Source: Cellulomonas edaphi
Lineage (GTDB): Bacteria; Actinomycetota; Actinomycetes; Actinomycetales; Cellulomonadaceae
Assembly: GCF_030362815.1 (NCBI RefSeq)
Contig: NZ_JAUCGR010000001.1
Location: 674,024 to 738,023 of the forward strand
DNA: 64,000 bases
Direction of reading: 5' to 3'
Part shown: positions 7,784-39,991 of the stretch, in pieces
How positions within the stretch are numbered: position 1 is the stretch's first letter
How the letters are laid out: each line of letters begins with the position of its first letter
Notes under the pieces: model-generated
Databases searched by the model: none
Told to the model about the DNA's origin: nothing
What the model saw: the letters and a program-made list of their open reading frames with translations, nothing else
Program-made: the position numbers and the translations under genes

Positions 7784-8670
7784 GCGCGGGCATGATGACG
7801 GACGCGGTCGCCGCGCCGAAGCGGCAGGCGACGCACACGCGGCGGATCAAGCGCCACGGCGGGGGAAGCCCGCTGATCTACCTGATCGCCCTGGTCGTGG
7901 TCGGCTTCACGGTGGGGCCGGTGCTCTACGGGGTGCTCGGCGGCTTCCGCACCAACGCGCAGCTGGCCGACAAGCCGGCCGCGCTGCCCTCACCCTGGGT
8001 GCTGAGCAACTACACGGGCGTGCTGACCAACCCGAGCTTCTGGCACTACGCGGTGAACTCGACCGTCATCGCCCTGCTCACCACGACGATCGTGGTGGTC
8101 TTCGGGATGATGGCGGCCTACCCGCTGGCCAGGTACAAGTTCCGCGGGCGCGAGCCGCTGTTCCTCGTGTTCGTGCTCGGCCTGCTCTTCCCAGCCACGG
8201 TGGCGATCATCCCGCTGTTCATCCTCATCACGAAGGACCTCAACATGGGGAACACGTGGTGGGGGGTGGCGCTGCCCCAGGCGGCGTTCGCGCTGCCCAT
8301 GACGGTGGTGATCCTGCGCCCGTTCCTCATGGCCCTGCCCAACGAGCTCGAGGAGGCGGCGCTGCTGGACGGCGCGTCCCGCATCGGCTTCTTCTGGCGG
8401 ATCCTCGTGCCGCTCTCGGGCCCGGGCATGGTCACGGTCGGCGTGCTCGCCTTCGTCGGCTCGTGGAACGCCTACCTGCTCCCGCTGCTCCTGCTGCAGG
8501 ACGACATGAAGACCCTCCCGCTCGGTGTCGCCGACTTCTCCTCGGAGCACGCGTCGGACACCGCCGGGGTCTTCGCCTTCACGACGCTCGCGATGATCCC
8601 CGCGCTGGTGTTCTTCCTCGCGCTGCAGAAGCGGATCGTCAACGGGCTCCAGGGCGCCGTCAAGGGCTGA
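7780..8670 (+). CDS. sugar ABC transporter permease, MalG/UgpE type
   Basis: A 296-residue partner permease with six predicted membrane segments, starting at LIYLIALVVVGFTVGPVLYG. Its ATPase-docking loop reads LEEAALLDGASRIGFFWRI. The ATG overlaps the stop of the preceding permease (ATGA), indicating translational coupling and equimolar assembly. Together with the upstream binding protein it forms a three-gene carbohydrate importer without its own ATPase. The GH3 gene follows after 34 bases, so the imported sugar is probably the substrate of that enzyme. Confidence 0.92.
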   Translation: MSAGMMTDAVAAPKRQATHTRRIKRHGGGSPLIYLIALVVVGFTVGPVLYGVLGGFRTNAQLADKPAALPSPWVLSNYTGVLTNPSFWHYAVNSTVIALLTTTIVVVFGMMAAYPLARYKFRGREPLFLVFVLGLLFPATVAIIPLFILITKDLNMGNTWWGVALPQAAFALPMTVVILRPFLMALPNELEEAALLDGASRIGFFWRILVPLSGPGMVTVGVLAFVGSWNAYLLPLLLLQDDMKTLPLGVADFSSEHASDTAGVFAFTTLAMIPALVFFLALQKRIVNGLQGAVKG

Positions 8671-37375: not shown

Positions 37376-38197
37376 CTACGAAGCGACGGGTCGCACACCC
37401 AGCGTGTAGCGGACCTCCTGGCCCAGCGCGATGCCGCCGTCGGTGGCGAGCCGGTCCGCCAGGGAGACGACCTGGGCCCGGACGTCGTCGTGCGCCTCGG
37501 GCGGGACCGCGTCCCACATCGCGCGCTGGCCGTGCGACCGCGTGAAGGCCAGCAGGTGCTCGGCGTCCCGCGCCACGGCGTGCACCGCGCGCGTCACGGT
37601 GCGGATCTGGGTGAGCCCGGCGCCGGCGAACAGCCCCTCCATCCCGGCGTCCGTCGCGAACGGTCCGGTCCTCCCGCTCGTGCGGGCGTCGAGCAGCGCG
37701 GGCGGGAGGTAGGGCAGGAAGACCTCGTCGAGCGCCCGCCACCGCTCGTCCTGCGCGCCGAACGTGGTGACGCCGACCCGCCCGCCTGGCGCCACGAGGG
37801 CGGTCCACGCGGCGAGCGCCGCGGCGGGGTCGGGCAGGAAGAACAGCACGAGCGACGCGGAGACCACCTCGAACGACGCGGGCGGGAACGCGGGCGCCTG
37901 CGCGTCGCCCACGAGCACCTCCACCTGGGCCAGGTCCGCGAGGTCACGGGCGGTGAGCTCGACCATGCGCGGCGCGAGGTCGATCCCGACGGCACGCCCG
38001 TGCGGCCCGGTCGCCTCCGCAAGGGGTCGGAGTGCCGCGCCACGCCCGCAGCCGATGTCGAGCACGCGCTCGCCGGGCTGGACTGCGAGCTGCTCGACGA
38101 GTCCCGCGGCGATCGGGGTGAACCATGGCACGCCGACCGCGTCGTACGTGTCGGCGACGCGGTCGAAGACGCCGCCGGCTCCTTGAGGCTGGGGCAT
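37376..38197 (-). CDS. class I SAM-dependent methyltransferase
   Basis: A 273-residue methyltransferase of the UbiE/Methyltransf_11 type. Motif I is VLDIGCGRGAALRPL with the acidic residue of motif II in AVGIDLAPRMVELTA; motif III/post I is EVLVGDAQAPAFPPASFEVV. The N-terminal FDRVADTYDAVGVPWF segment is common in quinone- and small-molecule methyltransferases. Substrate cannot be assigned from sequence. The ATG at 38197 is the sole start near the family N terminus. It is divergent from the small repeat protein gene and followed by its own terminator. Confidence 0.85.
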   Translation of the reverse strand: MPQPQGAGGVFDRVADTYDAVGVPWFTPIAAGLVEQLAVQPGERVLDIGCGRGAALRPLAEATGPHGRAVGIDLAPRMVELTARDLADLAQVEVLVGDAQAPAFPPASFEVVSASLVLFFLPDPAAALAAWTALVAPGGRVGVTTFGAQDERWRALDEVFLPYLPPALLDARTSGRTGPFATDAGMEGLFAGAGLTQIRTVTRAVHAVARDAEHLLAFTRSHGQRAMWDAVPPEAHDDVRAQVVSLADRLATDGGIALGQEVRYTLGVRPVAS

Positions 38198-38321
38198 CCG
38201 GCCACCGTGGCACCGCGCGGGGCGGCGCGACAAGGCCTCGCCGTGCGGGACGTGGCCGGTGAGCGCACGCTGAAGGCGTGCCGACACCCCCGGCGCAGCA
38301 CTCGACCCGAGGAGGAACGCG

Positions 38322-38663
38322 ATGAGCAACGACGACATCAGCGCGATGCCCAGCACCACCACGCACGGCAAGCCCGACGTCCTCGACGACGGCGACACGG
38401 CTCGCATCGTCGAGGGCGACGCCGTCGGGCACCTGGTGCCGGACGACGGTGACGAGGTGCTCGACCACGGCGAGACGGCTCGCGTGGTCGAGGGGGAGGG
38501 GCTCGCCGAGGCCGGGCACCGCCACGACGCTGACGTGACCGGGCACCGCCATGACGCCGACGTGACGGGCGACGTGACCGGGCACCGGCACCAGGACGGC
38601 GTGCTCGACGACGGCGAGACCGCGCAGGTCGTCGAGACCGACGGCCCCCCCAAGGGCCCCTGA
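38322..38663 (+). CDS. small acidic His-containing repeat protein, unknown
   Basis: A 113-residue hydrophilic protein that I do not recognise. It is made of two repeat types. The first is VLDDGDTARIVEGD, VLDHGETARVVEGE and VLDDGETAQVVETD (about residues 19-32, 47-60 and 93-106). The second is GHRHDADVT twice plus GHRHQDG between them (about 65-92). It is strongly acidic, lacks Cys, Trp and Phe, and has no signal peptide or membrane segment. A strong AGGAGGAA ribosome site before the ATG and the in-frame repetition argue for a real gene. His-Asp-rich repeats suggest metal binding (inference). It lies just upstream of the ROK operon promoter. Confidence 0.7.
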   Translation: MSNDDISAMPSTTTHGKPDVLDDGDTARIVEGDAVGHLVPDDGDEVLDHGETARVVEGEGLAEAGHRHDADVTGHRHDADVTGDVTGHRHQDGVLDDGETAQVVETDGPPKGP

Positions 38664-38732
38664 GCACGTCCTCGCTTCGCACCGGTAACCACCTCGTTAC
38701 CGGACCGAGACGCGCCTGAATCGTCGACCCCG

Positions 38733-38759
38733 TTGACTGTTAGGAAACTTACCTATTAG
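38733..38759 (+). promoter_or_regulatory. promoter with embedded ROK operator
   Basis: TTGACT (38733-38738) and TATTAG (38754-38759) flank the near-palindrome TTAGGAAACTTACCTAT (38740-38756, two mismatches around a central C). The -35/-10 spacing is short (15). TTAGGAAA-type palindromes are, from memory, typical of actinobacterial ROK regulators of chitosanase genes. The regulator gene starts 60 bases downstream, so autorepression of the whole cluster is likely. Confidence 0.6.
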
Positions 38760-38815
38760 TTTGACGGGGTCGACGCGTGCTCGCGTCGACCTCGGTCGAC
38801 GGTGATCGGAGCACG

Positions 38816-39991
38816 ATGGCAGGCACGGCGAACCAGCCCGGTACTCCCGGCCTGCTGCGCGCCATGAACGACCGCGCCGCGCTCGCCCTGCTGCTCGACG
38901 ACGGCCCCCTCACCCGTGCCCAGATCGGTGACCGCACCGGCCTGTCCAAGCCGACGGCGTCCCAGGTGGTCGCCCGCCTCGAGGCGGCGGACCTCATCGA
39001 GGTGGTCGGGTCCGTCGCCGCCACCCGCGGACCCAGCGCCGTCACCTACGGCGCGCGCGGCGGCCGGCTGCACGCGGTCGCCGTGGACGTGCGCCCGCAC
39101 CAGGTGGTGTCGACCGTGGTCGACCCCTGCGGCACGGAGCACCCCGTCGCGGACGTGCCGCTGGCCAAGGCGGCGTCCGGGCGATCGGCGGTCTCTGACA
39201 TCCGGGCCGCGATCGATGCCGCGTGCGCCGCCGCAGGCACCGACCCCGCGACGGTGGTCACCGCGGTCGTCGGCCTGCAGGGAGCGGTGGACCCGCGCAC
39301 CGACGACCTCGCGTTCACCGGTCTGATGCCCGGCTGGCCGCGGCGCAACGTGCGCGCCGAGCTGGAGGCGGGACTCGGCATCCCGGTGCGCATCGACAAC
39401 GACGTGAACCTTGCCGCGGTCGCCGAGCGGAACGACGGCTCCGTCGCTCCCGACGAGGACTTCGCGCTGCTCTGGCTCGGTGACGGGCTCGGCGTCGCGC
39501 TGCATCTGCGCGGCGAGCTCCACCGCGGCGCGGCGGGCGGGGCCGGCGAGATCGGCTACCTGCCGGTCTCGCGCTCGGCCGCGCAGATCGACCCCACGGC
39601 CGACGACCTCCAGGACGTCGCGGGCGGCATCGCGGTCGCCCGCGTCGCGCGTGCCCACGGCGTCCGTGGCCGGCGGCTCTCGGACGCCCTGGCCGCCCTG
39701 GCCACGAGCCCGGCGCGCGACGCCGTGCTGACCGAGCTGGCCCCCCGCGTCGCGGAGGCCGTGCTCCCCGTTCTCGCCGTGCTCGAGCCCCATCGGGTCG
39801 TGCTTGGCGGACCGACCGGCATGGCCGGCGGTCAGGCCCTCGCCGACCAGGTCAGGAGCCACATCCGCAGGACCACCCGCTGGTCCCCGTCCATCTCCGC
39901 GAGCTCCGTGCCTGATCAGCCGGTCCTTCGTGGAGCCCGTGCCGTGATCGGCGCCGATCTTCGTGACCGGCTGCTCGACCTCGTCACCTAG
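38816..39991 (+). CDS. ROK-family transcriptional regulator (CsnR-like)
   Basis: A 391-residue ROK repressor with an N-terminal winged helix (LTRAQIGDRTGLSKPTASQVV, about 34-54) and a C-terminal ROK sugar-sensing domain (RIDNDVNLAAVAERN, GEIGYLPVS). The Cys-rich zinc signature of ROK kinases is absent, consistent with a regulator. It heads a cluster running to a GH46 chitosanase, the same order I recall for csnR-csnE-csnF-csnG-csnH-csnK in Streptomyces (recollection, unverified). The ATG at 38816 follows GGAGCACG; a GTG 13 codons earlier is possible. An operator-like palindrome lies inside its promoter. Confidence 0.85.
   Translation: MAGTANQPGTPGLLRAMNDRAALALLLDDGPLTRAQIGDRTGLSKPTASQVVARLEAADLIEVVGSVAATRGPSAVTYGARGGRLHAVAVDVRPHQVVSTVVDPCGTEHPVADVPLAKAASGRSAVSDIRAAIDAACAAAGTDPATVVTAVVGLQGAVDPRTDDLAFTGLMPGWPRRNVRAELEAGLGIPVRIDNDVNLAAVAERNDGSVAPDEDFALLWLGDGLGVALHLRGELHRGAAGGAGEIGYLPVSRSAAQIDPTADDLQDVAGGIAVARVARAHGVRGRRLSDALAALATSPARDAVLTELAPRVAEAVLPVLAVLEPHRVVLGGPTGMAGGQALADQVRSHIRRTTRWSPSISASSVPDQPVLRGARAVIGADLRDRLLDLVT

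Follow-up and report, generated by a model that had tools for sequence, protein, structure and literature searches.

A small acidic repeat protein family found so far in a few Cellulomonas species

The repeat gene and its surroundings

The window, a 64,000-nucleotide stretch of a Cellulomonas edaphi contig, contains on its forward strand a small gene for an acidic repeat protein. The 113 residues have a pI of 4.29 and include 28 aspartates or glutamates, 7 lysines or arginines and 9 histidines, with neither cysteine nor aromatic residues. An original prediction, made from the DNA letters alone, had described this reading frame and a ribosome binding site in front of it. Both agree with our reading, the motif GAGGAGG (38309-38315) ending six bases ahead of the ATG at 38322. 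The features are:

38238..38298, + strand, 5' block, a probable control region, aligning in four species including Cellulomonas sp. JH27-2
38309..38315, + strand, Shine-Dalgarno-like GAGGAGG, read from the sequence
38322..38663, + strand, coding sequence of the 113-residue acidic repeat protein (ATG at 38322, stop codon ending at 38663)
38379..38420, + strand, unit 1, VLDDGDTARIVEGD, 14 residues
38457..38498, + strand, unit 2, VLDHGETARVVEGE, 14 residues
38514..38600, + strand, histidine-rich linker separating units 2 and 3, with three GHRH segments
38601..38642, + strand, unit 3, VLDDGETAQVVETD, 14 residues
38682..38703, no strand assigned, inverted repeat CCGGTAAC...GTTACCGG after the stop codon, read from the sequence

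The units start at residues 20, 46 and 94, the GHRH segments at residues 65, 74 and 87; the third segment reads GHRHQDG, not GHRHDAD. In the DNA, two direct-repeat families can be told apart, one comprising the three units and the other the histidine segments. The best internal 14-mer self-score of the protein was 55, against a maximum of 44 and a mean of 24.5 in 300 residue shuffles. The repeats are more than chance, since the same unit recurs in four other Cellulomonas species. Three VLDxGxTAxxVE units and three GHRH segments are thus present as predicted, but they do not make up almost the whole protein: units (42 residues) and GHRH segments (29 residues) cover 71 of 113 residues (63%). They were also called interleaved, a loose wording for the actual order of two units, three histidine segments and one unit (V-V-HHH-V).

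The repeat gene is divergent from a methyltransferase gene, which is followed by disA (DAC and DisA-linker domains). Downstream lie a gene for a ROK-family regulator and genes of a binding-protein-dependent ABC transporter. The inverted repeat at 38682..38703 may be a terminator or part of the control region of the ROK regulator; a terminator with a T run was not found. A similar stretch, AGGTAAC...GTTACCGG, is also located 3' of the small gene in Cellulomonas sp. PhB150. In three relatives (loci L011, L013 and L012) long G+C-rich hairpins were seen by eye directly 3' of the stop codon; they probably act as terminators lacking a T run. The ROK regulator gene is closely preceded by GTTAGGAAACTTACCTATTAG (38739-38759), an imperfect AT-rich inverted repeat that has one match within the window at up to 3 mismatches and is a likely operator of this regulator.

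Relatives and distribution

The original prediction recognised no family, and the window protein indeed had no match in NCBIfam or in Pfam (0 families, DUF5709 included, at E values up to 10). Among the five family members described below, the only Pfam listing was Hirudin for one protein (E 0.13), which is not credible; PHROGs and PADLOC gave no credible match for any of the five. Two listings among solved structures (E 0.021 and 0.33) were short stretches of unrelated enzymes and were taken as chance. In the open-licence full texts of PubMed Central, no mention of VLDDGETA was found, and a broader literature search of the same collection yielded no title on this protein.

Homologues with conserved repeats, whose absence the prediction had counted as part of its refutation, were found in four other species. 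The search of genome contigs with the single protein covered 405 pattern stretches and returned no relative; the search with an alignment gave 100 stretches including four relatives, all from Cellulomonas: C. massiliensis JC225, Cellulomonas sp. PhB150, Cellulomonas sp. JH27-2 and C. rhizosphaerae. Within the genus, a search with the single protein identified 5 carriers among 81 genomes, including the genome of the window. The proteins have 113 residues and three units (window), 58 residues and two units (PhB150), 61 and two (C. rhizosphaerae), 60 and two (JH27-2), and 118 and three (C. massiliensis, whose start is uncertain by two residues, another ATG being located two codons further in). 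A degenerate DNA pattern of the unit occurred at 11 places in five of the 81 Cellulomonas genomes, all inside this gene, and the reversed-pattern control had no match. In a sample of the order, a stricter exact pattern was present in 2 of 396 genomes, both carriers, at four places inside this gene; the sample also contained JH27-2 (G058), the units of which do not fit the stricter pattern.

Profile searches extended the list by weak matches. In the genus, 12 of 81 genomes had a match at E 0.01, seven of them weak (E 0.0026 to 0.0099) and in frames of 628 to 1541 residues; these seven were treated as chance, because the unit pattern had no match in the respective genomes. The family sample gave 11 matching genomes of 200, all from the same genus, namely four carriers and seven weak matches. 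The window's own genome was the only match among 394 genomes of the class. It was accompanied in the phylum sample (2 of 396 genomes) by a single match at E 9.6e-4, taken as chance, with GDVLDDGETARHVAV occurring once in a 138-residue frame and no further units. In these wide samples up to 13 candidates per genome were scored (26 in the family sample), a limit at which weak relatives may escape notice. No relative came from plasmids, phages or viral contigs (67 stretches). Judged by these sequences, the repeat gene is a member of a real protein family whose carriers found so far are a few Cellulomonas species.

The distribution was compared with a nucleotide tree of disA from 30 of the 81 genomes, chosen for their disA matches, which were the best. 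In it the window's genome clusters with PhB150 and C. rhizosphaerae, and C. massiliensis stands far off. JH27-2 forms a pair with a genome lacking a repeat-gene match (G039), and a second such genome (G036) branches nearby; several supports in this tree are low (0.05 and 0.31, for example). The patchy distribution may be due to loss, transfer or both.

Gene order and the upstream block

In PhB150 the gene order of the window is kept through the ROK gene; C. rhizosphaerae shares the part with disA and the methyltransferase. The small gene of JH27-2 is located between these two genes, and together with its 5' block it lies on the other side of the methyltransferase (L012, about 7989-8171, versus L013, 8001-8186), a local relocation. 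Small gene, disA and methyltransferase are at separate places in C. massiliensis, where by ORF reading the neighbour of the small gene looks like a LacI-type regulator. A conserved operon is absent, as the gene placement differs in JH27-2 and C. massiliensis. The small gene adjoins disA or is one gene away from it in four of the five species. All 81 Cellulomonas genomes possess disA. The methyltransferase (window 37376-38197) was matched in 13 of the 81 genomes (E 1e-50), including all five carriers. A motif scan for diverged copies at 30 of the 81 disA loci gave nine matches, all in the four genomes with a gene near disA, and a scan of 14 methyltransferase loci matched the same four genomes.

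About 60 bases upstream of the small gene align in four species, and the JH27-2 copy precedes the small gene though the methyltransferase is elsewhere. By blastn, the JH27-2 block matched that of PhB150 over 63 nt (73%, E 0.001) and that of C. rhizosphaerae over 35 nt (E 0.005), and had no match to the window. Since the block stays with the small gene in JH27-2, the comparison suggests that 38238..38298 is the gene's own control region. A possible hairpin was seen by eye in the block, but a covariation term of +0.25 lends no support to an RNA structure, and Rfam returned nothing for 38100-38850 at E values up to 1. A DNA search with 38245-38321 in the five carrier genomes returned, besides itself, 11 short weak matches elsewhere; it says little on other copies, because the homologous blocks seen in the local comparison were not returned.

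Conserved units and variable linkers

Across the 12 units in the five genes, V1, L2, D3, G5, T7 and E12 are invariant, position 8 is alanine or serine, and position 11 is valine in 11 units. This invariance is partly a product of selection by the collecting pattern, which fixed V1, L2, D3, G5, T7, alanine or serine at position 8, and E12. No further units were seen on reading through the five sequences. The second unit of JH27-2 deviates from the motif in having VAES, not VVEG. Between-unit differences per site amounted to 0.362 at the third codon position, versus 0.153 and 0.126 at the other two. Identical residues are encoded by different codons, with four alanine codons at position 8 and three valine codons at position 1. 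The location of the codon differences mainly at third positions points to selection on the protein sequence of the units. The pair PhB150 and C. rhizosphaerae has five synonymous and six non-synonymous codon differences (4, 3 and 5 by codon position; dN 0.053, dS 0.145), by itself weak evidence of selection.

The linkers vary in length and sequence among the five proteins. PhB150 and C. rhizosphaerae have HEHHEH runs, the window protein has GHRHDADVT and JH27-2 a glycine/threonine stretch. Histidine is rich in the linkers of three species, moderately frequent in a fourth and nearly absent in the fifth. Inside the units one histidine each was counted in the window and C. massiliensis proteins, and none in the other three.

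Predicted disorder and possible function

AlphaFold models based on the five-sequence alignment had a mean pLDDT of 55 for the window protein and 59 for the PhB150 protein, with a pTM of 0.11; neither model presented secondary structure or a confident region. The low confidence may also stem from the shallow alignment, whose five sequences include a close pair with 90% identity. In the charge-hydropathy plot, each of the five proteins lies on the disordered side of the line. The chain is probably unfolded, although these predictions are suggestive and not proof.

Our preferred explanation, to which we assign a probability of roughly 40%, is a translated, genus-restricted, disordered acidic protein acting as a multivalent short-motif ligand. 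A putative partner would offer one surface to which each of the VLDxGxT[AS]xxVE units, two or three per protein, binds; within a unit, VL and VV would serve as hydrophobic anchors on either side of an acidic turn. The variable, usually histidine-rich acidic linkers would space the units and may render the binding metal- or pH-dependent. A disordered acidic chain that carries a short, hydrophobically anchored motif two or three times has the layout of a multivalent docking protein, and the conserved hydrophobic residues inside the units suggest binding rather than a solvent-loving filler. Conserved relatives, protein-level selection on the units, variable linkers and the lack of a predicted fold support the model; translation, partner binding by the units and metal or proton binding by the linkers are the steps that we infer. 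Against docking stand the missing conserved operon partner, the small number of five sequences and the deviating second unit of JH27-2.

A cytosolic metal buffer or chaperone, in which histidine, aspartate and glutamate of the linkers bind zinc, nickel or copper and the VLD units do no more than hold the protein in place or direct it, is a less probable alternative. Outside the units, histidine accounts for 8 of 30 residues in PhB150 and 10 of 33 in C. rhizosphaerae (HEHHEH type), 8 of 71 in the window protein (GHRH type) and 7 of 76 in C. massiliensis, and the differing histidine sequences across species may hint that the histidine content itself is kept. However, JH27-2 has both units and only a single histidine (1 of 32 residues outside the units, 1 of 60 in the whole protein; the other four proteins have 9, 8, 10 and 8), the best conserved part carries almost no histidine, cysteine is lacking, and none of six window neighbours searched against Pfam was a metal protein. 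The metal binding proposed in the original prediction is plausible for some members, and binding through histidine may occur in most of them, but with a histidine content that varies among the members it is hardly a constant function of the family. Nothing was seen that points to polyamines, the other ligand proposed.

A protective role under stress like that of hydrophilins, in which a soluble, disordered filler hydrates other molecules without a specific partner, is unlikely. Acidity, the absence of aromatic residues in four of five members and the lack of a predicted fold agree with such a role, but a filler would need neither the invariant V1 and L2 nor the valine kept at position 11. Slightly more doubtful is a young or drifting gene without important function, or one that is not translated. 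The patchy occurrence in 5 of 81 genomes would fit, as would the two genomes that lack a match yet stand among carriers in the disA tree, where several supports are low; on the other side are the third-position bias of the unit differences, a coding-like GC content by codon position, the ribosome binding site and the 5' block, which apparently accompanies the gene. A function as regulator or partner of either neighbour, the c-di-AMP synthase DisA or the methyltransferase, is improbable: proximity to disA in four species and the methyltransferase in all carriers are in favour, but the three genes are unlinked in C. massiliensis, both neighbours are transcribed from the other strand, disA is far more widespread than the repeat gene, and co-occurrence has little weight, since the four linked cases may represent one acquisition. 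Most speculative is a metal- or pH-switchable adaptor whose histidine linkers would stiffen on metal and alter the engagement of the units, possibly with DisA or the methyltransferase as partner; if true, c-di-AMP signalling or another process would be under a new kind of control by a small protein in some Cellulomonas.

Comparison with known families

Among small acidic actinobacterial proteins, DUF5709 (Pfam PF18970) shares with the window protein only a DxLDxG-like stretch (DDLLDEGYSPPER versus DVLDDGETA). Membership was rejected: hhalign against a six-row DUF5709 alignment gave a probability of 1.5% over 12 columns. The LDEGYSPPER-type core and the GETxWEE...ETIDQR region of DUF5709 are absent, by eye, from the window protein and its four relatives, and no tandem units were present in 13 DUF5709 pieces read. 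A separate DUF5709 gene exists on contig C3 of the window's genome, and such a gene was present in 29 of 30 genomes of the genus searched.

Histidine-rich metal-storage proteins of the Hpn type keep a high histidine content across their members. They resemble the Cellulomonas family in small size and, for three of its five members, in richness in histidine; the difference is that histidine is not constant in Cellulomonas, JH27-2 being nearly free of it, a distinction drawn from composition. Hpn of Helicobacter pylori is presented as a nickel-storage gene in PMC7055735. Metallothionein-like metal buffers are cysteine-rich (PMC10612145). None of the five Cellulomonas proteins contains a cysteine. 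Hydrophilins and dehydrins are disordered and hydrophilic with a motif-repeat layout, and in this layout the family is similar to them; its units differ by carrying hydrophobic anchors. A 'bacterial dehydrin' has also been described (PMC12733033). The Pfam dehydrin family had no match in any of the five proteins. Pup, the prokaryotic ubiquitin-like protein, terminates in GGE or GGQ, and the Cellulomonas proteins end in PKGP, DESV, DEAP, TKAP and RAVP.

As far as searched, the family is undescribed, but its kind is ordinary: small disordered repeat proteins restricted to one lineage. It joins the large class of lineage-restricted orphans and leaves the general picture unchanged, and its interest is modest. 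With a clearly repeated motif and linkers that vary, this genus-restricted family, which none of the searched libraries contains, is a neat case for studying how disordered repeat proteins originate and how a short motif persists in them as the sequence in between turns over.
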